From Prosthecobacter algae (lineage in GTDB: Bacteria; Verrucomicrobiota; Verrucomicrobiia; Verrucomicrobiales; Verrucomicrobiaceae), in the NCBI RefSeq assembly GCF_039542385.1, contig NZ_BAABIA010000002.1:186001-250000 (forward strand): a stretch of 64,000 nucleotides of DNA, read 5' to 3'. Shown piece by piece: positions 1-13,373 of this stretch (the first letter of the stretch is position 1; the number at the start of each line of letters is the position of its first letter). Below the pieces are notes generated by a model. The model was not told where the DNA came from and made no database searches. It saw only the letters and a list, made by a program, of their open reading frames with translations. Both the position numbers and the translations under genes were made by a program.

Positions 1-2044
1 CATCGGCATCCATGGCGGCGATCGATTCAATGATGTCATTGAATTCGGAATAGCACATATGCGTGTGGATCTGGGTATCGTCCCGCACACCGCTGGCGCA
101 GAGGCGGAAGGCATTCACGGCCCAGTCCAGGTAAGCTGCCCAGTCGCTGCGGCGTAGCGGCAGGCCCTCTCGGATGGCAGGCTCATCAATCTGAATGGCG
201 GCGATGCCCGCGGTCTCGAGATCCACGACTTCATCCCGAATGGCGAGGGCGATTTGGCGGGTGGTTTCAGAACGAGGCTGGTCATCACGTACAAAGCTCC
301 ACTGCAGGATGGTGACGGGCCCGGTGAGCATGCCCTTCATTGGGCGCGATGTCAGCGACTGGGCATACTGGGACCAGCGGACGGTCATGGGAATGGGACG
401 GCTGACATCGCCAAAGATGATTGGGGGTTTCACATAACGGGAGCCATAACTCTGCACCCAACCGTTTTGAGTGAAGACAAAACCGTCGAGCTGTTCGCCA
501 AAGTATTCCACCATGTCATTTCGCTCGAATTCTCCGTGGACGGGCATGTCCATGCCGATCTCATCCTGAAAAGTTACGCAGTGCTGGATCTCCTGTTGGA
601 GAAAGACTTCGTAGGCTTCCGTGCTGAGTTCGCCTTTCTTCCACCGGCCGCGCATGGCACGGACCTCAGCGGTCTGGGGAAAGGACCCGATGGTGGTGGT
701 TGGGAACTCCGGCAATTTCAACTTGGCCTGCTGCAAGGATTGACGCTGTGCGAAGGGTGATTGGCGATCATAGTCCGTGGCCTTCACTGAGGCTAAGCGA
801 GTCTTCACTTCCGCACGGTGGATGCGTGAGCTTTCACGACGAGCCTGAAGCGCCTCTTGATTGGATCGAAGCAAGCTTTGATCCGCAGTGCCTCTCAACA
901 GACCGCTAAGGGTGGTAACCTCTTCCAGTTTTTGATCGGCAAAGGACATCCAGCCTTTGAGTTCGGCATCTAGAGATGGCTCATTGGCCAAGGTGACGGG
1001 AGAATGCTGAAGGGAGCAGGAGGGGGCGACCCAGAGTCTTTCAGAACCGACTACAGCCTGAGCTTCCGCCAAGATTCGCAAGGAGGCGGTGAAGTCATTT
1101 TTCCAAATATTGCGCCCATCTACCACACCGAGGGAGAGAATCTTGTTCGAAGGGAAACGAGCCAACAAGGCATCCAGTTCTGCCCCGCCGCGCACGGCAT
1201 CGAAGTGCAAGGCTTGAACGGGCAAGGAAAGGAAGAGGGGAAGGTTTTCACGCAGTTCGCCGAAGTAACTCGTGACCATAATTTTTAAGCCTGGAGCAGC
1301 CTTAGCTAAACGCTGCCAAGCAACCAAAACAGCATCCCGCTGAGTCTTGGAAAGATCGAGACCGAAGATCGGTTCATCAATCTGCACCCACTCAGCCCCC
1401 AGCCTTTGCAGACGCTGGAGTATCTGTTCATAGACATCCAAAAGCCCATCGAGAAGGCTGAAGCGGTCGAAGTCAGGGTTCGCTGAATCTTGAACTTTAC
1501 CTAACGAAAGGTAAGTCACAGGACCAGGCAGCACGGGTTTGGCTCGATGACCCAAAGACTGAGCTTCTTCAAATTCACGAAAGACTTTGTCCCCGACCAG
1601 TTTGAACTGGGTGATGGAGCGAAATTCAGGGACGATGTAGTGGTAGTTGGTATCGAACCACTTGGTCATCTCACAGGCAAAGGCGGGCTGCTGGCTACAG
1701 CCATGATCACAGGTGTCATGGGCTTCGCCACGGGAACCGCGAGCCATGAGAAACAGGGTGTCCAGATCCATCGTCTCGCCCTTCCAGCCAAAGCGCGGAG
1801 GGACGTTGCCGATGAGACAGGAAAAATCCAGCATCTGGTCGTAGAAGGTGAAGTCGTTGCAGGGAATGAGGTCCATGCCAGCGGCCTGCTGAGTGGCCCA
1901 ATTTTGCTTGCGCAGGCGGCGGCCCGTGGCCTCCAGGTCCTCGCGAGTGAGGCGTCCGTGCCAGTAAGCTTCCGTGGCTTTTTTGAGTTCGCGTTGCTGC
2001 CCGATCCGTGGGTAGCCCAGATTGTGTGTGTAGATATCGCTCAT
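1..2044 (-). CDS. metE: Cobalamin-independent methionine synthase MetE (3' end cut by window edge)
   Basis: Transfers the methyl group of 5-methyltetrahydropteroyltri-glutamate to homocysteine, the last step of methionine synthesis, in the cytosol. Reading leftward from the ATG at 2044 gives 681 open codons to the window edge. The N-terminus (SDIYTHNLGYPRIGQQRELK) matches the MetE N-terminal barrel. Later the frame holds TTTIGSFPQT (start of the C-terminal catalytic barrel), IQIDEPAIREGLPL and an HTHMCYSEFNDII block carrying zinc-site residues. MetE is usually about 755-770 residues, so roughly 80 codons with the last zinc-binding Cys lie outside. It is divergent from metR, the usual arrangement for MetR-activated metE. 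Family assignment is near certain. Confidence 0.96.
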   Translation of the reverse strand, partial: MSDIYTHNLGYPRIGQQRELKKATEAYWHGRLTREDLEATGRRLRKQNWATQQAAGMDLIPCNDFTFYDQMLDFSCLIGNVPPRFGWKGETMDLDTLFLMARGSRGEAHDTCDHGCSQQPAFACEMTKWFDTNYHYIVPEFRSITQFKLVGDKVFREFEEAQSLGHRAKPVLPGPVTYLSLGKVQDSANPDFDRFSLLDGLLDVYEQILQRLQRLGAEWVQIDEPIFGLDLSKTQRDAVLVAWQRLAKAAPGLKIMVTSYFGELRENLPLFLSLPVQALHFDAVRGGAELDALLARFPSNKILSLGVVDGRNIWKNDFTASLRILAEAQAVVGSERLWVAPSCSLQHSPVTLANEPSLDAELKGWMSFADQKLEEVTTLSGLLRGTADQSLLRSNQEALQARRESSRIHRAEVKTRLASVKATDYDRQSPFAQRQSLQQAKLKLPEFPTTTIGSFPQTAEVRAMRGRWKKGELSTEAYEVFLQQEIQHCVTFQDEIGMDMPVHGEFERNDMVEYFGEQLDGFVFTQNGWVQSYGSRYVKPPIIFGDVSRPIPMTVRWSQYAQSLTSRPMKGMLTGPVTILQWSFVRDDQPRSETTRQIALAIRDEVVDLETAGIAAIQIDEPAIREGLPLRRSDWAAYLDWAVNAFRLCASGVRDDTQIHTHMCYSEFNDIIESIAAMDAD

Positions 2045-2101
2045 GGCGATAAAACAACTATCGCCAGTTTCGATATAAACAATCCACAGAGTTTTGTGGA
2101 T
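2044..2101. promoter_or_regulatory. metE-metR divergent control region with two inverted repeats
   Basis: The 84-bp gap between the divergent starts holds two perfect inverted repeats. TGGCGAT (2044-2050) pairs with ATCGCCA (2060-2066), overlapping the metE start. ATCCACA (2082-2088) pairs with TGTGGAT (2095-2101), six bases apart. LysR-type regulators bind dyads in such gaps, so these are candidate MetR operators. Neither is a clean copy of the enterobacterial TGAA-N5-TTCA MetR site, so the assignment is inferred from position and symmetry. Confidence 0.5.
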
Positions 2102-2117
2102 CATCATTCAAATTGCT

Positions 2118-2123
2118 TATAAT
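2118..2123 (+). promoter_or_regulatory. Perfect -10 hexamer (TATAAT) five bases before metR
   Basis: TATAAT lies only five bases upstream of the metR ATG at 2129. If used, transcription would start at or next to the start codon, giving a leaderless message. A weak -35-like TTGTGG lies at 2094-2099, 18 bases upstream, inside the right half of an inverted repeat. Confidence 0.45.
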
Positions 2124-2128
2124 GGCGA

Positions 2129-3052
2129 ATGCTCGAAGTCCGCCATCTCCAGGCCCTTATCGCCCTTTCTGAAACGGGAAATCTCTCCAAAGCAGGTCGC
2201 CGTCTTCACCTGTCACAGCCTGCTTTATCACACCAAATCAAAGCGGTGGAAGAGCACCTGGGCGTGGAATTGTTTCAGCGAAAAAGCAGCCCGCTACGAT
2301 TGAGCCCGGCGGGTGAGCGTTTGTTAGGCACGGCCTATGAGGTAGTGAAAACCATGCAGCAGTGTGAGCGGGATGTGGCACGCATTGCAGAAGGGAAGGC
2401 CGGGCAACTCAGGATCGCCGTGGAATGCCACTCCTGCTTTGACTGGCTGATGCCTGCGATGGATAGCTTTCGCGAAGCCTGGCCGGAAGTGGAGATGGAT
2501 CTGGTGTCTGGCTTTCAACCGGACCCCACCGGGCTGCTCCTAGAAGATCAGGCGGATCTAGTCATCGTCTCCAAAGCCCCACCCCGTAAGGATGTGGTCT
2601 ATCATCCATTGTTTCGTTATGAGGTGCTGGCGCTGATCGCACGAAAACACCCACTGAGTAGAAAGGCTTTTCTGACAGCACAGGACTTTGCCAAAGAAAC
2701 GCTGATCACCTACCCGATTCCGGATGATCGCATCGACATCATTCGGGAGGTGCTGGGGCCAGTGGGGGTGAATCCGGTGCGGCGCACCGCGATGCTGACG
2801 GTGGCCATTTTACAACTGGTGGCCAGTCACCGGGGTATCGCCGCCATGCCTGGCTGGGCCGTGCAGCCCTACTTGGAAAAAGGCTATGTGGAATATCGCC
2901 CGGTGCGCAAGCAGGGCCTGTTTGCGAATCTGCATGCGGCGACGACACGCAGCCTTTCCCAAACGGCATACATGAAGGAATTCATGAACATCATGAAGCG
3001 GGTGAGTTTTGATTCCCTAAAACGTATCCGACCAGTCGGGGAAGAGGACTGA
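2129..3052 (+). CDS. metR: LysR-type regulator of methionine synthesis, MetR
   Basis: Homocysteine-responsive transcription factor expected to activate metE. The 307-residue length is normal for LysR proteins. Residues 1-60 form the winged helix-turn-helix (LSKAGRRLHLSQPALSHQIK). The effector domain begins near residue 88 with LRIAVECHSCFDWLMPAM, closely resembling the MetR-specific block IAIECHSC-WL-PA of enterobacterial MetR. That block, together with divergence from metE, separates it from a generic LysR regulator. The ATG at 2129 leaves an 84-bp divergent gap, has no Shine-Dalgarno motif and follows a TATAAT by five bases. An ECF sigma factor follows 50 bp downstream on the same strand but need not be co-transcribed. 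Confidence 0.92.
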   Translation: MLEVRHLQALIALSETGNLSKAGRRLHLSQPALSHQIKAVEEHLGVELFQRKSSPLRLSPAGERLLGTAYEVVKTMQQCERDVARIAEGKAGQLRIAVECHSCFDWLMPAMDSFREAWPEVEMDLVSGFQPDPTGLLLEDQADLVIVSKAPPRKDVVYHPLFRYEVLALIARKHPLSRKAFLTAQDFAKETLITYPIPDDRIDIIREVLGPVGVNPVRRTAMLTVAILQLVASHRGIAAMPGWAVQPYLEKGYVEYRPVRKQGLFANLHAATTRSLSQTAYMKEFMNIMKRVSFDSLKRIRPVGEED

Positions 3053-3102: not shown

Positions 3103-3864
3103 ATGATGAACTTGCCTGCGGATCCATCGTCTCATCCCCCTGCTCTCGGCGCGATGCAGCAGACTGGTCATTTTTACACCACTCGGTGGACGCAGGTGGT
3201 GCGGGCAAAGGAATCCTCCCATGAAGGACGCGAGGCGCTGAGAGACCTCTGTGACATCTACTACGCGCCTGTAATGGCCTACCTGCGCCGGGAGCTGCGG
3301 GACCCTGATGCCGCGCAGGAACTGGCCCATGAATTCTTCGCCTACATGTTACGAGGTGAAGCCATCCGTACAGCCGAACAAATGCGCGGTCGCTTTCGTT
3401 CCTACCTGCTAGGCGCAGTGAAACATTTTCTCCTTCGCCAGCATGAACTGGAGCAGCGACTAAAGCGTGGGTCAGGGGTGAAACCTGTCTCTATGGATGA
3501 TGATGCGGCGCAGAGCCTGCGGGATGAAGATCAACTTACACCCGATGCAGCGTTTGATCGGCAATGGGCTTTGACCGTGCTGGAGCGCGCCTTAAAGTCA
3601 TTGAAGCAGGAGTGTGATAAGGAAGAACGAGGAGCGCTTTTTGAAAAACTCACGCCGTGGTTGACCGGAAATTCCGATCATGGAGATCAGGCGGCTTTGG
3701 CTCAAAGTCTGGGCATGAACTTGAACTCGCTGAAATCAGCGGTGCATCGGCTGAAACAAAGCTTTCGAATGAAGGTACGAGAGGAGGTGGCCTCCACACT
3801 GGAGGACGGTGCTGATGTGGAAGAAGAGATGCGCGTGCTTTTCGCGGCCCTGAGAAGTCGCTAA
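3103..3864 (+). CDS. ECF-like RNA polymerase sigma factor, kinase-linked type
   Basis: A 253-residue sigma-70 family protein of the large ECF type common in PVC bacteria. The region-2-like part is about residues 40-110 (LRDLCDIYYAPVMAYLRREL, then AAQELAHEFFAYML) and the region-4-like helix-turn-helix is about residues 150-230 (AALAQSLGMNLNSLKSAVHR). Adjacent ATG codons at 3103 and 3106 make the start slightly uncertain; a shorter start at Met 19 (MQQTGHFYTTRW) is possible. It lies 41 bp before a Ser/Thr kinase on the same strand. Sigma factors of this kind often neighbour such kinases, suggesting control by phosphorylation rather than by an anti-sigma factor; that is inference, and no anti-sigma gene is adjacent. 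Confidence 0.85.
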   Translation: MMNLPADPSSHPPALGAMQQTGHFYTTRWTQVVRAKESSHEGREALRDLCDIYYAPVMAYLRRELRDPDAAQELAHEFFAYMLRGEAIRTAEQMRGRFRSYLLGAVKHFLLRQHELEQRLKRGSGVKPVSMDDDAAQSLRDEDQLTPDAAFDRQWALTVLERALKSLKQECDKEERGALFEKLTPWLTGNSDHGDQAALAQSLGMNLNSLKSAVHRLKQSFRMKVREEVASTLEDGADVEEEMRVLFAALRSR

Positions 3865-3905
3865 AATTTTGCAACTGTTGTCAGCAAACCCGTCAGGCAT
3901 TCGGT

Positions 3906-6308
3906 ATGAGCGAACTCAGTCCTTCTTCCCATCCCTGCCCTAAATGTGGTGAACCCATCACTGAGAGCACCCATCATGATCTATGCCCAGTCTGCCTCAT
4001 GGGGGTGGCGATGAATTGGACACAGGCCACCCAACCAGCAACGGCGCCACAAAAGCTGCTGACTCCGGAGGAACTCGCCCCACATTTTCCGCAACTGGAA
4101 GTGTTAGAACTCATTGGCCGGGGGGGCATGGGCGTGGTATATAAGGCCAAACAAAAGAGCCTGGACCGCTTTGTGGCGCTCAAGCTTCTCTCACCGGATA
4201 CTGAGAAGGATCGCGCCTTTGCCCAACGCTTTGCCACGGAGGCCCGGGCACTGGCCCAGATGGTTCATCAAAACATCGTCACGGTGTATGACTTCGGGGA
4301 AAGCGGCGGCTTTTACTACCTGCTGATGGAGTATGTGGATGGGGTGAACCTCCGGCAGGCCATGCAAGCAGGGCGCATCACCCCAGAGCAAGCGCTCGCC
4401 ATCGTACCCCCAGTTTGCGAAGCGCTACAGTACGCCCATGAGCGGGGCATTGTGCATCGTGACATCAAGCCTGAAAACCTGCTGCTGAACAAGCAAGGGC
4501 AGATCAAAATAGCCGACTTTGGCATTGCTAAAATGGTGGGCCATGCGGAGTCAAGTGAGGAGACGGATGGCACTACGCAGGAGACACATGCCACCTTCAT
4601 CGGCGGGACGCCGCCGTACATGGCCCCAGAGCAAAAAGAGTGCGCGGCACCGGATCACCGGGCAGACATTTATTCGCTAGGGGTGGTGCTGTATGAGCTG
4701 CTCACCGGAGAACTTCCCACAGCCAGCCTCCAGCCGCCGTCAGAGCGCATCCAGGTGGATGTGCGTCTGGACGAGATTGTACTTCGGGCGCTGGAAAAAT
4801 CCCCTGAGCTACGGTTTCAAACAGCAGCAGATTTCCGCACTCAATTGGCCACGATTCAACACACGCCCTCGCCTCAAAAACAAACGCTCAAAAACTCGAC
4901 CCGCAAAGCCAGCACCCTGCAAGTTGCCACCCTTTCGGTCATCGGTACCATCATCGCCCTTTTCAGCATCTTCTTGGTCATCCGGGTTTTTTATTCAAAA
5001 CCTGGCCGACCACCTAACAGCAAGTATGGTCAATCCGATATGCGTGGATCGACGGATATGACTCAAGGCAACGTAGAGCCTATTCGTATCCCTCTCCAGT
5101 GGCATGCAGAAGGTGGCGTGCAACGTGTGGGAAGCTACAAACCGACCCTCCTGAAAACGACCCCGACCAAGCCTGATAGCATCACTCGCCTTCCAGACAA
5201 TTTGCTGCGGCCTTTTTATGCTCAGGTGAAGCTAGGATCGAAGGCGCTGTCCAAATTCAGCACCCTCACTTTTTTAGTGGACCGGGCGGTGGGGAAAACA
5301 GAGACGCGAGTAATCCTGGATAGCAATGGCAATGGCGATCTCACGGATGACTCGCCCGCCGAACTTGAGCATATGGGCAGGCTCAAGAACGGTAGCTTCA
5401 GCTTGAGCGGCACTGGCTGGGCGAGTCTTCCTTATGAGGGAGAATACTCCCGAGTGAGTGTGCGTTTCCATACGATGCCACAGTCCCTGGATAGCGAGAG
5501 TCCTCCTACAATCGTTTATTCTTTGGATAGTTATACCGAGGGTAAAATCCAAGGTCCCAAAGGGATCTGGCTGCCAGTTGTTTTGAGAGATTCAGATGGA
5601 GATGGCGACTTTAGTACCGGGGCCTCCATCCATGTGGATACTGATGGCGATGGCGAATACCGACGCACGGGAAAGTACTTTGCCGATGCAACGACGTTTC
5701 AGATCAATCAGGTTAAATTTCTCCTCTCGGATATTTCGCCCTCTGGGAATGCTATGGTTCAAGCGGCGCACATCGAGCCCCAAGAGCCTTTGAAAAATAA
5801 CCCTATCGCCCCGCAAAAGCTACCCCCACAAACCATGCCAAAGACACGTCTTATAGGCGCGAAAATCCTACCAGGAGAAGTGGCACCCGCATTTACGGCC
5901 AGCACGATGAAACATGGCACGGTGGAGATCCCGAAGAGCTACCAGGGCAAGCTTCTGCTGCTGGACTTTTGGGCCACTTGGTGCGGCCCTTGCATCCGGG
6001 AATTGCCAAATGTCTCTGCTGCTTACGATAAGTTTCATGATCAGGGGCTTGAAATTTTGAGCGTCAGCCTAGATACGGAAAAGAGTCTCGATAATCTCCC
6101 AGCGATACTGACAAAGCATCGCATGGTATGGCCGCAGGTGTGTGATGCGGCGGAGTTTGATTCAGCTCTGGTCAAGCTGTATGGAGTCCGCGGTATCCCT
6201 GCCACAGTATTGATTGATGGTGATACCGGTAAGATCATAGCAACGGATCTTCGCGGGGCTACGCTCGAGACCAAGATCGCTGAAGCGTTGGCAAAACGGA
6301 AACGCTGA
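3906..6308 (+). CDS. Membrane Ser/Thr protein kinase with C-terminal TlpA-like thioredoxin domain
   Basis: An 800-residue fusion. Residues 11-30 hold two CPxC pairs (CPKC, CPVC), a probable zinc ribbon. A Hanks-type kinase spans about 67-315: glycine loop GRGGMG at 71-76, Lys 93, Glu 112, HRD at 184-186, DFG at 204-206 and APE at 240-242, so it looks active. One membrane helix lies at about 338-362. The outside part holds acidic segments resembling calcium-binding loops (DSNGNGDLTDD at 472-482, DSDGDGDF at 562-569, DTDGDGEY at 578-585). It ends in a redoxin domain from about 655 with WATWCGPC at 689-696. The plan suggests an extracytoplasmic thiol-disulfide or calcium-binding module joined to a cytoplasmic kinase that may control the preceding sigma factor. 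Domains are secure; the signalling role is inferred. Confidence 0.9.
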   Translation: MSELSPSSHPCPKCGEPITESTHHDLCPVCLMGVAMNWTQATQPATAPQKLLTPEELAPHFPQLEVLELIGRGGMGVVYKAKQKSLDRFVALKLLSPDTEKDRAFAQRFATEARALAQMVHQNIVTVYDFGESGGFYYLLMEYVDGVNLRQAMQAGRITPEQALAIVPPVCEALQYAHERGIVHRDIKPENLLLNKQGQIKIADFGIAKMVGHAESSEETDGTTQETHATFIGGTPPYMAPEQKECAAPDHRADIYSLGVVLYELLTGELPTASLQPPSERIQVDVRLDEIVLRALEKSPELRFQTAADFRTQLATIQHTPSPQKQTLKNSTRKASTLQVATLSVIGTIIALFSIFLVIRVFYSKPGRPPNSKYGQSDMRGSTDMTQGNVEPIRIPLQWHAEGGVQRVGSYKPTLLKTTPTKPDSITRLPDNLLRPFYAQVKLGSKALSKFSTLTFLVDRAVGKTETRVILDSNGNGDLTDDSPAELEHMGRLKNGSFSLSGTGWASLPYEGEYSRVSVRFHTMPQSLDSESPPTIVYSLDSYTEGKIQGPKGIWLPVVLRDSDGDGDFSTGASIHVDTDGDGEYRRTGKYFADATTFQINQVKFLLSDISPSGNAMVQAAHIEPQEPLKNNPIAPQKLPPQTMPKTRLIGAKILPGEVAPAFTASTMKHGTVEIPKSYQGKLLLLDFWATWCGPCIRELPNVSAAYDKFHDQGLEILSVSLDTEKSLDNLPAILTKHRMVWPQVCDAAEFDSALVKLYGVRGIPATVLIDGDTGKIIATDLRGATLETKIAEALAKRKR

Positions 6309-6314
6309 TGCAGA

Positions 6315-7760
6315 TCACTCCCCGGCTGGCAGATGGACCTCAAAGCAGGCACCCTTCCCCAGCGTACTTCGCAAGGTGAGGGTGCCACCGTGATTGTCCA
6401 CAATGGCTTTGGCTATCGCCAACCCAAGGCCTGAGTGCCCGGAGTTGCCCGTACGGGCTTGGTCTGCCCGGTAAAAACGCTCAAAAACATGCGGTTGATC
6501 GGCCTCATCAATGCCAGGCCCATCATCCTCCACAGAAAAGACTGCCTGCTGCCCCTGCGAGGCGCAGGACAGCTTCACATTACCCCCATGCTGCAGGGCA
6601 TTGGCCATGAGATTGGTTGCCAACAGGGAGAGGGTTTCTGCATCGACACGGCAGACAGTGGGGGAAAGGGTAGTCTCAATGCGGAAACCACGTTCTCTCG
6701 CGAGCGGGGTCAAGTGATCGGCTGCCTCTTTGAGGACCCTCGAAAGATCACACACAGAATGATGAGCCGCAGCGGCAGGTGGGTTCTCTTGACGAGCGAG
6801 TAAAAGCAGAGACTCCACCAAGCGTCGCATTCGCTGGGCGGTGGCCTCGCAGGTTTCCAGAGCTTCACGATATTCTTCCGGTGAGCGCTCACGTTTGAGC
6901 AGGCGATGCGTTTCCGAGAGCAAGATGGTAATGGGCGTGCGAAGCTCATGCGAGGCATCGGCAGTAAACTGGCGTTGGCGCTCAAATGCGGCGTGCAGAC
7001 GCTCAAAGGTCTGGTTCAGCACCTGGCTCAGTTCGCCCAGTTCCGTATCCATTTCGCGGATGTCTATGCGCTCCTTAAGGTTGCCCTCCGCGATGCGGGC
7101 AGCGGTTTGGCTGATGGTGCGGATGGGGCGGATGGCGCGACCTGAGAGCCACCAACCGCCTAACAAACCGAATAACCAAACACCGAGACCGATGAATAAA
7201 TGCAGCCAGGCGATGCTGTGCATTTCATGCAACTCAGGGGTGATGTCTCGTCCTACGACGACCTTTAGCCCATGCACCGAACTTCGCAGGGTTTCACGGC
7301 GCGTGCCGACGCTACGCGTCTCCTCAACCAAATCCACGGTCGGCAAAGGCAGAAAAACCAAATCCGTCGGAGCATTCTCGGACTGGAGAATGATTTGATC
7401 GTTTCGGTCCCGGACACTGAAGTAGGCGTAACCTGGCTGGTTGCCACGAAACTGAACCAGGATAGCTTCTGGTAACTGCACAGGTTGGCCGACCAGACGG
7501 CGGACAAAGTCAGCAGGGCCCAAAAATTGGCGTTGCGAAGGCTCTTCAGAAACTGGAGAAGGTGGGCTGGCCTGAACCAAGTCTAACAAGGAGCGCACAA
7601 GATTCCGCTCCAACTGGCTGAGTTCCTTATCCAGCCGCTGCATCTGGTTATCCCTCGCAAGCCGGTAAGCAGGGGCGGTGGACCCTACAACAACGAGTAG
7701 CAGTAGCAGCCCATGCCAGGCCTGCAGCCGCCAGCGTAGTGAGTGAAAAAAGGTCTTCAT
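6315..7760 (-). CDS. Sensor histidine kinase of the efflux operon
   Basis: A 481-residue membrane kinase. TM1 is at about 17-33, followed by a periplasmic sensor of about 150 residues, TM2 at 184-206, HAMP at 207-259, and a dimerisation domain with phospho-acceptor His 271 in DASHELRTP. The ATPase domain has the N-box Asn 383 and Asn 387, DDGPG at 412-416, FERF at 426-429 and GLGLA at 444-448. All catalytic motifs are intact. It overlaps the response regulator stop by four bases (ATGA), so the two are translationally coupled and form a pair. As the last gene of the leftward efflux operon it probably senses a pump substrate or envelope stress. Its 3' end converges on the kinase-thioredoxin gene with only six bases between stops. 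Confidence 0.93.
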   Translation of the reverse strand: MKTFFHSLRWRLQAWHGLLLLLVVVGSTAPAYRLARDNQMQRLDKELSQLERNLVRSLLDLVQASPPSPVSEEPSQRQFLGPADFVRRLVGQPVQLPEAILVQFRGNQPGYAYFSVRDRNDQIILQSENAPTDLVFLPLPTVDLVEETRSVGTRRETLRSSVHGLKVVVGRDITPELHEMHSIAWLHLFIGLGVWLFGLLGGWWLSGRAIRPIRTISQTAARIAEGNLKERIDIREMDTELGELSQVLNQTFERLHAAFERQRQFTADASHELRTPITILLSETHRLLKRERSPEEYREALETCEATAQRMRRLVESLLLLARQENPPAAAAHHSVCDLSRVLKEAADHLTPLARERGFRIETTLSPTVCRVDAETLSLLATNLMANALQHGGNVKLSCASQGQQAVFSVEDDGPGIDEADQPHVFERFYRADQARTGNSGHSGLGLAIAKAIVDNHGGTLTLRSTLGKGACFEVHLPAGE

Positions 7761-8407
7761 ACGATGCAGTAACCGTGACCTCGGCGTGTGGTGATGATGT
7801 CCGAACCTAGCTTCTTACGCAGATTCGAAACATGCACGTCCAGGAGGTTTGATAGCGTGCTGTCTTCCTCATCGAAAAGGTGTTCGTATAGAGTGGTGCG
7901 GGTGACCACCTGCCCACGATGCAGGGCCAGGTACTCCAGCAGTGCGTACTCACGGGCAGTCAGCGGCACTTCCTGCCCAAAGAGTTTCACAAGACGGATC
8001 GCCGTGTCCAGCGACAGAGGGCCAATCTCCAGGACGGGGTGGGTTTGACCTGCTGCCCGCCGAATAAGAGCCCGCAGACGAGCCAGTAGTTCATCAATAT
8101 CAAAAGGTTTGGTGAGGTAATCGTCGGCCCCTTGATCCAAGCCCTTCACGCGGTCTTGAACGGTGTCCTTGGCCGTCAGCATCAGCACCGGAGTTTTACA
8201 GGAGGGACGCAGCCGGGCGAGAACTTCCCAGCCATTCATGCGCGGCATCATCACATCCAGCACCAGGGCATCATAGCTTTCATCCAGGGCTTTGGTTAGC
8301 CCTTCCAGACCATCCATCGCCGTATCCACCGCATAATTTTCCTCTCGCAAATTCGCCGCCAGACTACGGAGGAGGTGCGGATCATCTTCGATGACGAGGA
8401 TTCTCAT
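7757..8407 (-). CDS. OmpR/PhoB-family response regulator
   Basis: A 216-residue DNA-binding regulator. The receiver domain has acidic pocket Asp 8 and Asp 9, phospho-acceptor Asp 51 (VLDVMMPRMNGWE), Thr 78 and Lys 100. The winged-helix output domain covers about 125-216 and ends RKKLGSDIITTRRGHGYCIV, typical of the OmpR/PhoB class. It sits eight bases after the permease stop and overlaps its partner kinase by four bases. The likely target is its own operon promoter upstream of the TolC-like gene, which would be autoregulation; no binding site was identified. Confidence 0.94.
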   Translation of the reverse strand: MRILVIEDDPHLLRSLAANLREENYAVDTAMDGLEGLTKALDESYDALVLDVMMPRMNGWEVLARLRPSCKTPVLMLTAKDTVQDRVKGLDQGADDYLTKPFDIDELLARLRALIRRAAGQTHPVLEIGPLSLDTAIRLVKLFGQEVPLTAREYALLEYLALHRGQVVTRTTLYEHLFDEEDSTLSNLLDVHVSNLRKKLGSDIITTRRGHGYCIV

Positions 8408-8415
8408 GGTGGAGA

Positions 8416-9630
8416 TTATTCGTGGCGCAGGGCTTCGATAGGATCAAGCTTCGCCGCGCGGCGGGCGGGGGTAAAGCCGAACAGCACCCCGACAGCGGTC
8501 GAGAAGAAAAAGGCCACGAGATTGATCTGCGGATCAAAAACAAACGTCACCTGGATGAGCTGAGCCAGCCCGAAGCACAGGGCAAAGGCCGTGAGAATAC
8601 CGACAAGGCCACCGATGGAGGAAAGCGTGATGGCCTCCACTAGGAACTGCAGCAGCACCTCCCTGGCCCGGGCACCGATGGCCAGACGAATGCCAATCTC
8701 CCGCGTGCGCTCCGTCACCGAGACCAGCATGATGTTCATGATGCCGATACCGCCTACCAACAAGCTCACACCGGCGACGGCGGCGAGGAGGGTGGTCATC
8801 ATGCGAGTCGAGGCACTCAACGTCTCCGCGATCTGGCGGGTATCAAAGACATTAAAGTTATCCTCCTGGTTAGGCTGCAAGTTACGCCGCTGGCGCATGA
8901 GAGAAGAAATGTCATCAATGAGAACTTCGCTGTTTGATCCTTCCTCAGCTGAGATGGTTATCTGGCTCACTTCACGTGACGAAGTTTTCCCCGTTAGACG
9001 CCGCTGAAGGGTGGTGAGCGGTACGATGATGGTATCATCCTGGTCCCCCATGCCGGATTGACCTTTGCTGGCCAGCACCCCAATGATCTCACAGGAGGCC
9101 TTGCCCAGGCGGATCTTCATCCCCACGGGATTTTGATTGCCAAAAAGATTGGTCTTCACCGTGTTGCCGATGACGCAGACTGCCTTACCCGCTTTGTAGT
9201 CAGCCTCGTTAAAAAGGCGGCCATCTCCCAGGGTCCATTTATTGATGTAAAAATAAGGTGGCGTCGTTCCCGTAACCGAAGTCATACGCGCATTTTGCAG
9301 ATACACCGTACTCATGGAGGAGCTGCTGACAGGGGCAATCGCCGCGATGTTAGGCACCTGATCTTCGATGGCTTGCACATCCTTTTGGGTAAACTGAGGC
9401 ACCCCGGCGGAGGCGGATCTGGGGCCGAAGCCCATCCCTGGGCGCAGGACGAGAAGGTTACTCCCCAGATTGGAAATCTGATTTTTCACCGCCTGCGTGG
9501 TGGCCTGCCCGAGCGTGACCATGGTGATGACGGCAGCCACCCCGATGATGACACCTAGCACGGTCAAAAACGCCCGCATGAGATTGCGGCGAATTTCGCG
9601 CAGGGCGATGGAGAAGGCATTCCAGAGCAT
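8416..9630 (-). CDS. MacB-type ABC transporter permease (FtsX family)
   Basis: A 404-residue inner-membrane permease of a tripartite exporter. TM1 lies at about 18-40 (MRAFLTVLGVIIGVAAVITM), then a large periplasmic domain, then three C-terminal helices beginning near LLAAVAGVSLLVGGIGIMNI, followed by the MacB signature SVTERTREIGIRLAIGAR. The frame stays open 32 codons further upstream, but that stretch overlaps the ATPase gene and is not MacB-like. I therefore start at the ATG at 9630 (MLWNAFSIALREIRRN), ten bases after the ATPase stop. Unlike E. coli MacB, the ATPase is a separate protein here. Substrate unknown; macrolides, peptides or lipids are all possible for the family. Confidence 0.92.
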   Translation of the reverse strand: MLWNAFSIALREIRRNLMRAFLTVLGVIIGVAAVITMVTLGQATTQAVKNQISNLGSNLLVLRPGMGFGPRSASAGVPQFTQKDVQAIEDQVPNIAAIAPVSSSSMSTVYLQNARMTSVTGTTPPYFYINKWTLGDGRLFNEADYKAGKAVCVIGNTVKTNLFGNQNPVGMKIRLGKASCEIIGVLASKGQSGMGDQDDTIIVPLTTLQRRLTGKTSSREVSQITISAEEGSNSEVLIDDISSLMRQRRNLQPNQEDNFNVFDTRQIAETLSASTRMMTTLLAAVAGVSLLVGGIGIMNIMLVSVTERTREIGIRLAIGARAREVLLQFLVEAITLSSIGGLVGILTAFALCFGLAQLIQVTFVFDPQINLVAFFFSTAVGVLFGFTPARRAAKLDPIEALRHE

Positions 9631-9640
9631 GATCGTGAGG

Positions 9641-10345
9641 TTAAGATTTCGTGCGGATGTCTGACTCGATAAGGCCATCTTTGACCCGCACGATTCGTTT
9701 GGCGTGTGTAGCCACTTCATCCTCATGGGTCACCATGAGCACGGTGATGCCCCGGTCTTCATTCAGCCGGGTCAGTAGCTCCATGATTTCATCCGTGGTG
9801 CGTGTGTCCAGGTTCCCCGTCGGTTCATCGGCAAACAGGGTGCTAGGACGGGTAACGATGGCGCGGGCAATGGCGACACGCTGCTGCTGCCCGCCGGAAA
9901 GCTCCGCCGGCGTGTTGCGCATCTTGTTAGGCAAACCCACGGAAACCAGGGCCTCCTGAGCACGCTCACGACGCTCTTTTTTGGACATGCCGCGATAGAC
10001 GAGGGGCAGCTCCACATTTTCCAAGGAACTGGTGCGGGCCAAAAGATTAAACCCCTGGAAGATAAAGCCCAGGGCATGACGCCGCAGCAAAGAGCGCTGA
10101 TCTGAATTCAGGTTTTCCACCGCAATATCTTGGTAGAGATAGTTGCCAGAGGTGGGGGTATCCAGGCAACCCAGGAGATTCATCAAGGTGGATTTGCCAG
10201 AGCCACTGGGACCCATGACGGCCACAAATTCACCTTTGTTGATTTGCAGATCCACACCGCGCAGCGCCTGGAAAGCGGCGTCACCTTGACCGTAAGTTTT
10301 GGTCAAACGGCGAAGTTGAATCAGGCTGGTGGCAGAGGCACTCAT
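9641..10345 (-). CDS. ABC transporter ATP-binding protein, MacB/LolD type
   Basis: A 234-residue cytoplasmic ATPase. Walker A is GPSGSGKST at 45-53, the Q-loop is in FIFQGFNLL, the signature is LSGGQQQRVAIARA from 149, and Walker B is LFADEPTGNLD at 170-180. The last motif is typical of the MacB/LolD/FtsE subfamily. Its ATG overlaps the stop of the MacA-like gene by four bases, and the permease follows ten bases after its own stop, so it powers that permease. The length is that of a free-standing nucleotide-binding domain. Confidence 0.95.
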   Translation of the reverse strand: MSASATSLIQLRRLTKTYGQGDAAFQALRGVDLQINKGEFVAVMGPSGSGKSTLMNLLGCLDTPTSGNYLYQDIAVENLNSDQRSLLRRHALGFIFQGFNLLARTSSLENVELPLVYRGMSKKERRERAQEALVSVGLPNKMRNTPAELSGGQQQRVAIARAIVTRPSTLFADEPTGNLDTRTTDEIMELLTRLNEDRGITVLMVTHEDEVATHAKRIVRVKDGLIESDIRTKS

Positions 10346-11670
10346 GGAGTCACAGGATTGGCGCGAGTGATGACCGGAAGACCTTCGGTGACACCTTCAC
10401 CCGTGATTTCGGTGTGGCGTCCATCGGTGAGCCCGGTCTTTACAGTTACGGGCTGAGGCCGCCCACCCTTAAGGATCCAAATGCGGGCCTGACCGGGAAC
10501 TTTTTTGGGCACGGGTTCCTGGCTCTCAGCCCCCCCTGGCCCGCCTCCACCACCCGAGCGGCGAGTCGGTCTAGGAATGAGACTTTGCACAAAAGATTTC
10601 TTCGCCTCCCCCCCCTTCGGGCTGTCCGAGGATGATTCGGGGCTAAAACGCAACGCCGCATTGGAAACGATGAGCACCTCCTTGCTTTCTGCCACATTGA
10701 TGTCCGCAGTCGCCGTCATGCCCGGCCGCAGACTGAGGTCCGTATTGGTCACTTCCAACTCGGCCTCATAGGTGACTACATTGTCTGTCACGGCGGAGCC
10801 AAAGGCGACCTTCGTCACGGTGGCATTGTAGGAACGATCCGGCCAGGCATCCACGGTAAAGTTGGCTTTTTGGCCTTTGGCAACGCGTCCGATATCCGCC
10901 TCAGCGACGGCAACTTTCAGTTTCATGTGCTCCAAGTTCTCTGCGATGACAAAAAGCTCTGGAGCGGTGAAACTGGCAGCCACGGTCTGGCCGGGTTCCA
11001 GACTCCGCGTGAGAACAATGCCCTCAATGGGTGAGCGCAAAATCGCATTTTGCTGATCGCTTTCATTGGCTCTCAGTTCAGCCTCAGACTGTTCCACGGC
11101 GGCCTTAGCACTGCCGAGGTCTGCTTGTGCACGTGCCACAGCGGCGGTGGCGGTGACCATGTCCGCCTTGGATGGTGTTCTGCCCCCGCTGAGTTTGTGC
11201 AGTTCTTCGAGACGCGAGAGGCTGGCCTCGTTTTCTTTCAGGGTGGCCTCCACCTGCTTAACTTTGGCTTTGGCAGAATTCACCGCCGCGCGACTGCTGT
11301 CCGTATCCTGGTCCAAACGGCGGATGATGATCTTCGCCAGAGGCTGGTCTTTCTTCACGCGGTCATTGGTGTCTACATAAACCTCATCCGTCGTGCCGGA
11401 AAGCACACTACCAATGGTCACTTCATTGGTCGGCTCCAGATTGCCCGTGGCTGTGATGGTGAGACCGATATCCCCACGAGCGAGAGGTTCCGTCACGTAA
11501 AGGGGAGGTGGGGCGGCAGGCTCGTGAGTTTGAGCCCAAAGAAAATAAGCAGCGTAGGCGATGGCGGCAGATCCGGCGATCCAGGCCATCCAGCCTAGCC
11601 AACTGCGCTTCTTCTTGCTGCCGATCAGCTCGCTTAAATCAACGGGGGGGGTGGCTGATTGTGATTCCAT
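10342..11670 (-). CDS. MacA-like periplasmic adaptor (membrane fusion protein)
   Basis: Bridges the inner-membrane ABC permease and the outer-membrane TolC-like channel. From the ATG at 11670 it has 442 residues: a short cytoplasmic tail, one membrane helix at about 22-42, a biotinyl-lipoyl-like half (GDIGLTITATGNLEPTNEVTIG), a long coiled coil (about 110-200, rich in AKAKVKQVEATLKENEASLS) and a beta-barrel half. The frame is open 26 codons further, into the region before the TolC stop; MESQSATPPVDL is the more natural start. A Gly/Ser-rich insert (RRSGGGGGPGGAESQ) near residue 375 is unusual and probably an exposed loop. It overlaps the ATPase gene by four bases. Confidence 0.93.
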   Translation of the reverse strand: MESQSATPPVDLSELIGSKKKRSWLGWMAWIAGSAAIAYAAYFLWAQTHEPAAPPPLYVTEPLARGDIGLTITATGNLEPTNEVTIGSVLSGTTDEVYVDTNDRVKKDQPLAKIIIRRLDQDTDSSRAAVNSAKAKVKQVEATLKENEASLSRLEELHKLSGGRTPSKADMVTATAAVARAQADLGSAKAAVEQSEAELRANESDQQNAILRSPIEGIVLTRSLEPGQTVAASFTAPELFVIAENLEHMKLKVAVAEADIGRVAKGQKANFTVDAWPDRSYNATVTKVAFGSAVTDNVVTYEAELEVTNTDLSLRPGMTATADINVAESKEVLIVSNAALRFSPESSSDSPKGGEAKKSFVQSLIPRPTRRSGGGGGPGGAESQEPVPKKVPGQARIWILKGGRPQPVTVKTGLTDGRHTEITGEGVTEGLPVITRANPVTP

Positions 11671-11692
11671 AATGAGGGGGGATGAAATGAAA

Positions 11693-13108
11693 CTAACCCT
11701 GGCGCGACCAGCCGCCGCCGAGGGCTTTGTAGAGCTGTATGTGGGCACTGGCGCGATCTCCCTGGGTGAGGGTTTGCTGCTCTTCCAGGCTCAAAAGCGT
11801 GCGTTGTGCGTCTAGCACTTGCAGGAGATCGATTTGCCCGGCTTCATAACTCTGCGCGGCCAGGGTGGCTGCCTCTTTGGCAGAGGTCACCGCGCCATCC
11901 AGCGTGCGTAGCCGCTCGCTGCTACGGCTCACGGCGATGAGGGCATTCTCCACTTCAGACAAGGCCTGCAGCACGGTGGACTCATAAGCGATGAGCGCCT
12001 GCTTTTCCTGGGCACTCTGGACATTGATGGTCTGCCGAATGCGCCCCGCATTGAAGATGGGGGCAGAGAGATTTCCCAGCAGGCTCGCAGCGGCGACTTC
12101 AGGAGAGAGCAGACTGCCCGCCTTCAGAGCATCGACGCCCAAAGAGCCGCTGAGAGTGAAGGTGGGGTAGCGCTCCTTTTCGGCCGATTTCGTGCGTGCC
12201 ACGGCGGCCTCCACACCACGCTCCGCCGCACGCACATCTGGCCGCTGGCGCAGCGTGTCTGCAGGGATGCCCAGAGCCAGAACGGCTGCAGGCACGGGTA
12301 CGCGGCGGGGTGGAGCCAGTAGGGCATTGAGCGCGCCGGGGGTCTTGCCAGACAGCAAGGCGAGGCGGTTTTGAGTCTGCTCGATCGTCTGCTTCAAGCT
12401 GGGCAGGGTGGCGCGTGCCTGCTCCAGGGTACTGGCGGCCTGTTGGGTTTCAAAGGTGGTGCTTTCGCCTGCCTGCTCACGCCAGCGGGTGATCTGGACG
12501 GTATCCCCACGGGTGGAGAGATTTCGTTGATACACTTCCAGTTGGGCCTGGGCGGTGCGGAGGTCCACATAAGCCTCGGCCACTTCGGCGGCTAAAGTCA
12601 CCTGGGCAGCGTGGTAGTTTTCAGTCGCCTGGGCGAGGTCTGCGGAGGCCGCGTTGACGTTTTGACGCAGCTTACCAAATAGATCTACCTCCCAACTCAT
12701 GTCCACACTGGCACTGTAGCTTTCACTCGTGGAAAGGCCCGTCAGCTTGCTATCACTGCGTTCGCCACGGCCTGTGCTGCCAGTAGTGATCGAGGGGAAA
12801 AGCGTGGCTTTTTCCACCCCACGCCGGGCCCGCGATTCGTCGATCCGTGCTAAGGCTGTGCGCACATCAGGGCTGGACTGCAAAGCCTGAGCAAGCACTT
12901 GATTAAGGATTGGATCATTCAACTTACGCCACCACTGTGTCAGGCCTGCGGTATCCAGTGGAACCACACCAGATTTTTTTCCCTTCCATGCGGCAGGGAT
13001 AGCGAGGTCACTCTCATGCCGTGAAACGGAAGTGCAGCCCCCCATCAGCACTGCTAGAGCCAATCCAGTCAGGCCGATGAGGGGGCGGGGGGGGTTGGTG
13101 ATTTTCAT
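11693..13108 (-). CDS. Outer-membrane efflux lipoprotein, TolC/NodT family
   Basis: First gene of the leftward efflux operon. From the ATG at 13108 it has 471 residues. A lipoprotein signal runs to the lipobox LMGGC (Cys 25), followed by the two repeated outer-membrane-efflux halves, visible in LAQALQSSPDVRTALARIDE and again in LALGIPADTLRQRPDVRAAE. This is the NodT-type lipoprotein variant of TolC, which forms the outer channel for MacAB-like and RND pumps. The frame extends 16 codons further upstream (MSEECADGSRPL) without signal-like features, so the inner start is preferred. The adaptor gene begins 22 bases after its stop. Confidence 0.93.
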   Translation of the reverse strand: MKITNPPRPLIGLTGLALAVLMGGCTSVSRHESDLAIPAAWKGKKSGVVPLDTAGLTQWWRKLNDPILNQVLAQALQSSPDVRTALARIDESRARRGVEKATLFPSITTGSTGRGERSDSKLTGLSTSESYSASVDMSWEVDLFGKLRQNVNAASADLAQATENYHAAQVTLAAEVAEAYVDLRTAQAQLEVYQRNLSTRGDTVQITRWREQAGESTTFETQQAASTLEQARATLPSLKQTIEQTQNRLALLSGKTPGALNALLAPPRRVPVPAAVLALGIPADTLRQRPDVRAAERGVEAAVARTKSAEKERYPTFTLSGSLGVDALKAGSLLSPEVAAASLLGNLSAPIFNAGRIRQTINVQSAQEKQALIAYESTVLQALSEVENALIAVSRSSERLRTLDGAVTSAKEAATLAAQSYEAGQIDLLQVLDAQRTLLSLEEQQTLTQGDRASAHIQLYKALGGGWSRQG

Positions 13109-13373
13109 GAAACGCTGGGTCAGAGGTCTGCTCCCGTCCGCACATTCCTCCGACAACCTTTAGAAAAGGTTAAGGCACACAAAAAAAATGAGAGAAAGAT
13201 ACCGAACCCCTTTCTCATGCGTGAGTCAGGGGACGAGAGATCGTTATTTCCTGGCGCAATGAATCGGATCTCTAGGGCTGATCGGCTCCATGATCCCGCC
13301 TTAAAGACGACACGAGATGAGACGAAATAACCTCAATGCTTTGAATGCCGAGGGGCTTAGCAGCCACATTTCA
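13109..13373. other. Intergenic region upstream of the efflux operon
   Basis: This 265-bp stretch must hold the promoter for the leftward six-gene efflux operon and the end of the small cupin gene. I see an eight-A run (13182-13189), a short dyad CTCA-TGCG-TGAG inside CCCC...GGGG flanks (about 13205-13230), and a loose AGAGATC/GATCTCT inverted repeat (about 13237-13274). Any could be a response-regulator site; none fits a consensus I can name. No gene is supported here. Confidence 0.4.

Follow-up and report, generated by a model that had tools for sequence, protein, structure and literature searches.

The signals sensed by bacterial Hanks-type Ser/Thr kinases are, to our knowledge, mostly unknown. 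Here we analyse one such kinase of Prosthecobacter algae, an 800-residue transmembrane protein that ends in a TlpA/ResA-type redoxin and whose gene follows a putative sigma factor gene, in a stretch of 64,000 nucleotides (contig NZ_BAABIA010000002.1, positions 186,001 to 250,000) hereafter called the window. The closest described protein is PknE of Mycobacterium tuberculosis, a kinase–transmembrane–DsbA-like protein with a CPPC motif, for which the available part of the report mentions no sigma factor partner (PMC3792642). The available text of three further papers speaks of its 'extracellular compact domain' and says no more on redox ectodomains (PMC3140968, PMC2877116, PMC6213207). Like PknE, the window protein would combine a cytosolic Hanks kinase, one transmembrane helix and, outside the cytoplasm, a thioredoxin-fold domain with CxxC. 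It differs from PknE in that the redoxin is of the TlpA/ResA type with CGPC, is preceded by a domain that we call E, and comes with a linked sigma gene. No DsbA family was found in the window protein by Pfam at E-values up to 1; the AhpC-TSA, redoxin and thioredoxin families matched instead. A preliminary description of the locus had called a thioredoxin sensor on a Ser/Thr kinase an uncommon plan. Because of the PknE precedent, as given in the available part of PMC3792642, such an ectodomain is not new, and what sets the window protein apart is its redoxin type, its E domain and its conserved sigma partner.

As for sigma factors, the kinase-activated extracytoplasmic function (ECF) factors of group ECF43 offer the nearest comparison. 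Vibrio EcfP has STTA in place of the DAED motif and is phosphorylated at the second Thr of STTA, Xanthomonas EcfK has QATE and also uses T106 of the linker, and kinases linked to ECF43 factors have a wide range of extracytoplasmic domains (PMC8999054, PMC13147305, in the parts available). As in the EcfP/PknT and EcfK/PknS pairs, where an ECF-type sigma gene adjoins a transmembrane Hanks kinase gene, the kinase gene of the window adjoins a probable ECF-like sigma gene and DAED is altered; the window sigma motif retains one acidic residue, as does QATE, but lacks the Thr/Ser that ECF43 factors have in region sigma-2.2. Groups ECF59, ECF61, ECF62 and ECF217, with Planctomycetes examples, are linked to Ser/Thr protein kinases and predicted to be regulated by phosphorylation (PMC8999054, same parts); their likeness to the window pair, sigma genes near Ser/Thr kinases, is one of description, not of group models. 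A survey of kinases from Planctomycetota and outgroups counted 307 architectures and 105 accessory domains, and the words redoxin, AhpC and thioredoxin are absent from the available main text, supplements aside (PMC11032199). In the literature examined, subscription papers and supplements aside, we found no Hanks kinase described with a TlpA-type redoxin and an adjacent sigma factor.

Anatomy and conservation of the sigma factor–kinase pair

The kinase–redoxin arrangement is real and conserved; it represents no new type of system but a lineage-specific variant of known receptor kinases. The pair has the following parts, all on the forward strand.

3103 to 3864, +: ECF-like sigma-70 family gene, 253 residues, directly 5' of the kinase gene
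3865 to 3905, +: intergenic gap of 41 bp between the sigma and kinase genes
3906 to 6308, +: kinase–transmembrane–E–redoxin fusion gene, 800 residues, uninterrupted frame
3936 to 3995, +: zinc-ribbon-like CPKC...CPVC, residues 11-30 (Pfam DZR, E-value 0.019, below cut-off)
4098 to 4733, +: Hanks Ser/Thr kinase domain, residues 65-276 (Pfam Pkinase, E-value 2.9e-52)
4926 to 4982, +: single membrane helix, residues 341-359 (19-residue Kyte-Doolittle mean, 2.53)
5079 to 5762, +: E domain, residues 392-619 (E-value 1.3e-82 with our own profile, which includes the window protein)
5871 to 6233, +: TlpA/ResA-type redoxin, residues 656-776 (Pfam AhpC-TSA, E-value 3.4e-18)
5979 to 5993, +: redox active site WCGPC, residues 692-696 (WCxxC in 13 of 13 aligned proteins)

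The fusion had been announced in the preliminary description, and Pfam indeed places Pkinase and AhpC-TSA in one frame of 800 residues. The kinase motifs (glycine loop GRGGMG at 71-76, VALK, HRD at 184-186, DFG at 204-206 and APE) are intact, and the numbered ones as well as WATWCGPC (689-696) lie exactly where they had been placed. The sigma gene, which ends at 3864, was likewise correctly placed 41 bp upstream of the kinase gene, and the helix given as 338-362 agrees with the only hydrophobic peak of the protein, located between kinase and ectodomain. The CPKC...CPVC ribbon is a feature absent from that description.

Of 48 genomes of the genus, 13, including the window's, encode proteins matching most of residues 377-800 (E-value 4.5e-56 or better). 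Six of these are kinase fusions (the window and genomes G004, G034, G001, G026 and G036) and seven are kinase-free. A homologous sigma gene lies directly upstream in five of the six fusions, that is, in all five that belong to the kinase lineage of the window protein; with start codons chosen by script, the gaps are 41 bp in the window, 6 in G004, -4 in G026 and 43 in both G034 and G001. In the four other genomes with this two-gene order, the whole kinase protein is 49-86% identical to that of the window, and the catalytic residues of kinase and redoxin and the four Cys of the ribbon are invariant across all five. One neighbourhood is common to the window and G004 and a different one to G034 and G001; of the frames compared between them, those of sigma and kinase are the only ones that match, besides a weak (25-26%) similarity between histidine kinases. 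The genomic contexts of the pair thus number at least two; the 4.9-kb contig of G026 is uninformative in this respect.

The sigma protein itself gives weak profile matches (TIGR02937, E-value 1.1e-5; Pfam Sigma70_r2, 0.0021), both below curated cut-offs, and its four matches among PDB sequences (E-values 0.17-0.84) include no sigma factor. Nevertheless, it aligns along its length with other kinase-linked sigmas in which DAED or DAQD is present. Since four other genomes of the genus have the same two-gene arrangement, the assignment is more than chance. The earlier mention of an ECF sigma factor agrees with the alignment and with the five-of-five pairing, the profile scores being below cut-off, and we regard the gene at 3103-3864 as probably encoding a divergent ECF-like sigma.

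The kinase chassis and the E–redoxin cassette

We searched 387 genomes of the phylum with a full-length profile, scoring two candidates per genome, so that rare fusions may be missed. Beyond three fusions included, 33 matches were obtained, 27 of which are given as loci. A sigma gene lies directly upstream on the same strand in 18 of these 27 close kinases; among the other nine, it is just 3' in two, 613 bp upstream in one and absent from the 1.5-kb flank in six. For comparison, it lies directly upstream of two of 20 other kinases in the window's genome, with two more divergent (21 were found, of which one fell short of the profile cut). The chassis kinases differ at their C-termini: among ten scanned, an M23 peptidase, tetratricopeptide repeats, an ExbD-like part and DUF1648 occur once each, and six have no further named domain, several of them ending at the locus edge. 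Because chassis kinases with a sigma gene have such varied C-termini, the pairing is broader than the redoxin. Kinase and sigma factor are thus supported as a conserved unit, without a specific tie to the redoxin. A single kinase/sigma chassis that occurs with differing ectodomains is of interest in itself, and in its redoxin variant the ectodomain is an enzyme, easily assayed and mutated, such that the input could be tested by two point mutations.

Among 81 distinct kinase frames, redoxin is present in six and E alone in one, and the C-terminus is missing at the locus end in 28. No kinase and redoxin matched in one frame at an E-value of 1e-5 in the best 80 of 395 contig loci, among which close records may be missing. 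One Nocardia locus (L058), suggested as a fusion by the span of its tblastn match, was rejected, as its kinase frame has no redoxin match.

Planctomycetota, Spirochaetota and Armatimonadota also have kinase-free proteins in which E and redoxin occur together (L056, L057, L059, L063, L082 and L127), several of them starting with signal-like N-termini, judged by eye. Near one of them in Planctomycetota, that of L056, a Hanks kinase gene (L056:8797-11181) lies about 1.6 kb 3', possibly unrelated. The E profile is rare, with matches in 17 of 288 genomes of the order (10 candidates scored in each) and in 6 of 337 of the phylum (8 candidates scored in each), both counts including the window's genome. 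The seven kinase-free proteins of the genus (L142:8313-10535, L141:5913-8165 and L143-L147) share a C-terminal extension, with a Trypsin_2 match in the two scanned; it is conceivable that they are redox-controlled proteases. In L262-L264, the E domain is found in proteins without a redoxin-profile match.

A tree of 24 E or E–redoxin rows joins the seven kinase-borne members in one group (94/91), G050 being entered by its E domain only. The G050 kinase has 1109 residues (L197:5949-9278), with an E and a 3-keto-disaccharide hydrolase-type domain; its gene adjoins a frame of 539 residues and another that resembles a sulfatase by eye. In the kinase tree, the five sigma-linked fusions fall inside the chassis clade, and G036 and G050 lie elsewhere, where a further, neighbouring kinase of G036 joins them (96/89). 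Monophyly of the seven E-bearing kinases was rejected (p-AU 3.4e-6). The plainest reading is that the cassette was placed on two kinase lineages, though the 94/91 support is moderate and long branches occur in the kinase tree.

Possible inputs, outputs and competing explanations

What we observe is the anatomy of the protein, the conservation of the pair and of the catalytic residues, and a cassette that occurs more widely and sits on two lineages of kinases. We propose that the window protein is a receptor Ser/Thr kinase from a sigma/kinase module, has gained a redox-active ectodomain and controls the adjacent sigma factor, and give this proposal an even chance of being right. The single-pass receptor would belong to a widespread sigma/kinase module, and its ectodomain would be a captured cassette of E and TlpA/ResA-type redoxin that is found elsewhere in secreted-looking proteins. 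With the kinase inside and the redoxin outside, as we infer, the CGPC dithiol would most likely react with or report the thiol-disulfide state of the periplasm, or a thiol partner protein. A redox change would then act on the cytosolic kinase, through its association or its conformation, and the kinase in turn would control the sigma factor. Judged from sequences, this redox-to-sigma account is reasonable, redox input and the sigma factor as phosphorylation target being its presumed elements.

Several points weigh against it. Positive charges flank the membrane helix on both sides, so that charge alone does not settle the topology. Sigma/kinase adjacency is not confined to kinases with a redoxin. 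The G036 fusion, which belongs to the other kinase lineage, lacks the ribbon and has no sigma-profile match within the 36 kb fetched. The G050 kinase combines E with another domain without a redoxin; a redoxin is thus not required on every E-bearing kinase. In addition, none of the five orthologous sigmas has a Ser or Thr at the sigma-2.2 motif, the redoxin might work as an active reductase instead of a sensor, and two conserved acidic loops of the E domain make Ca2+ or ligand input possible. The last three points lead to the alternatives considered below, the first of which concerns the sigma factor.

3310 to 3321, +: position of the sigma-2.2 core-binding motif, sigma residues 70-73, where AAQE replaces DAED
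3532 to 3546, +: sigma2–sigma4 linker QLTPD with Thr146, a candidate phosphosite of putative function

In an alignment of the window sigma with 24 other kinase-linked sigmas, the five orthologs have AAQE, AAQE, AGRE, AARE and VARE at the DAED position. As these motifs contain no Ser/Thr, the EcfP-type phosphosite is absent. Together with six chassis sigmas (L222, L223, L225, L245, L246 and L247), which have xxR(E/D)..H instead of DAED while their relatives retain DAED or DAQD, they make 11 non-DAED sigmas, and the sole Ser/Thr at the four places is the Thr of L246 (TARD). The remaining 14 have DAED (seven), DAQD (six) or EALD (one). As for the linker, QL(S/T)PD is found in all five orthologs, and all 11 non-DAED sigmas have Ser/Thr-Pro there, compared with a Ser/Thr in 6 of the 14 others (five before Pro; Fisher p 0.003). 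This contrast was chosen post hoc and ignores kinship, and the non-DAED sigmas all come from a single part of the kinase tree; it is therefore a lead only. If the sigma factor is a substrate, its site would not be the sigma-2.2 threonine of ECF43, and the linker Ser/Thr-Pro would be the best candidate. It resembles the second site of EcfK. Sigmas that keep DAED/DAQD and sigmas that have lost DAED, beside the same kinase chassis, form a natural series for the study of switching outside ECF43.

The lack of Ser/Thr at sigma-2.2 in all five orthologs and the G036 fusion without a nearby sigma gene would also fit a kinase that phosphorylates another protein, the sigma gene being merely co-regulated. 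We consider this somewhat doubtful in view of the tight pairing (five of five in the lineage, 18 of 27 in close kinases) and of the two contexts, which have no other neighbour gene in common save for the 25-26% similarity between histidine kinases.

It is tempting to extend our proposal to a portable redox-sensing cassette, otherwise a secreted oxidoreductase, that was recruited to two kinase lineages in one family and in one of them gave rise to a sigma factor controlled by thiol state via linker phosphorylation. Periplasmic disulfide stress would be read by the CGPC dithiol, and Ser/Thr phosphorylation would relay it to a sigma of altered charge, activated at the sigma2–sigma4 linker instead of sigma-2.2. 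Taken as a whole, this extension is speculative and fairly unlikely.

The nature of the input depends on the ectodomain, for which we aligned the window protein with 12 relatives. The active site is WCGPC in 12 of the 13 and WCPPC in G036; a third Cys of the redoxin, Cys746, is conserved in 11, and the cis-Pro region retains its IP motif. Because WCxxC is present in all 13, a redox role is plausible from these sequences. The structure predicted for E and redoxin together (seven rows) has a mean predicted local distance difference test (pLDDT) score of 71.8 and a predicted template modelling score of 0.44. The matches listed for it fall on the redoxin, with Z-scores of 19.1-20.9 across 132-144 residues for the first 13 from the PDB. 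The best were ResA and Bacteroides oxidoreductases; over the same span, ResA, TlpA and Bacteroides thiol-disulfide oxidoreductases (PDB 1st9, 4grf and 3fw2) reached 19.4-20.9 and, unlike the window protein, have no kinase fusion. A model of E alone (mean pLDDT 53.5) was too poor for a structure search. In the predicted structure E is beta-rich, and it is perhaps distantly GEVED-like: Pfam GEVED matches 6 of the 13 E domains (best E-value 4.1e-5), the window's own not among them. The E-domain profile gave a single match among PDB sequences (E-value 0.77), judged to be chance. Three acidic loops stand out in E.

5319 to 5351, +: acidic loop 1, DSNGNGDLTDD, residues 472-482, kept in 13 of 13 aligned proteins
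5589 to 5624, +: acidic loop 2, residues 562-573, Dx(D/N)xDGDF, found only in the five fusions linked to a sigma gene
5637 to 5672, +: acidic loop 3, residues 578-589, Dx(D/N)x(D/N) core kept in 12 of 13

The calcium-type loops reported earlier are thus present as acidic loops at 472, 562 and 578, but only loop 1 and the acidic core of loop 3 are widely conserved, and Gly occupies the sixth place of loop 3, as in a full calcium-type loop, in 5 of 13 proteins. EF-hand_5 matches 2 of the 13 E domains (best E-value 0.55), and the window protein has no match to an EF-hand or dockerin profile. Calcium binding by E is possible from this pattern and might be structural.

One might therefore see in the window protein a receptor whose E domain binds a glycan, a peptide or Ca2+, with the redoxin as a stabilising passenger. 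Loop 1 and the core of loop 3 would agree with this, as would the E domains found without redoxin in L262-L264 and in G050, beside its 3-keto-disaccharide hydrolase-type domain. Such a receptor is nonetheless unlikely: WCxxC, kept in all 13 proteins, would be unexpected in a passive passenger, loop 2 varies, and the window protein matches no EF-hand or dockerin profile. Conversely, the redoxin might be the effector, a membrane-anchored ResA/TlpA-like thiol reductase acting on periplasmic substrates, and the kinase mainly an anchor or a separate activity. The conserved active-site and IP motifs would suit a reductase, as would kinase-free cassettes that in one group precede a trypsin-like protease, and a DsbD_TM protein encoded in the window's genome is a possible electron source under either reading, sensor or reductase (a search of this genome for VKOR found none). 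However, in bacterial transmembrane Ser/Thr kinases the periplasmic part commonly serves as a sensor (PMC13147305, in the part available), and the E domain of G050 sits on a kinase without a redoxin; we find an effector quite improbable. Finally, we found no point in favour of an artefact, a chance or mis-assembled fusion of adjacent genes: the frame at 3906-6308 is free of stops and orthologous kinase–E–redoxin fusions bring the total to six distinct genomes, which leaves this explanation with virtually no likelihood.

Neighbouring genes and other redoxin frames

Positions 2-3052 of the window contain MetE and LysR-type genes in divergent orientation, similar to a MetR/MetE pair, and the LysR gene ends 50 bp upstream of the sigma gene. 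A promoter scan near the sigma and kinase genes was uninformative, with two found and 2.0 expected. On the other side, a cluster convergent with the kinase gene (6315-13156) encodes a histidine kinase and a response regulator with Trans_reg_C, together with a MacB-type permease, an ABC ATPase, an HlyD-type protein and outer membrane efflux proteins.

Six long redoxin frames of the genus (L249-L254) have no kinase-profile match; three of them were also scanned with Pfam. Two have a C-terminal redoxin (L249:3205-6450, 1081 residues, and L253:478-3849, 1123 residues), many frames of similar size existing in the genus, and L249 has no Pfam domain other than thioredoxin above cut-off. In L251:1277-3940, a redoxin, a metallophosphatase and a 5'-nucleotidase C-terminal domain are combined in one frame.

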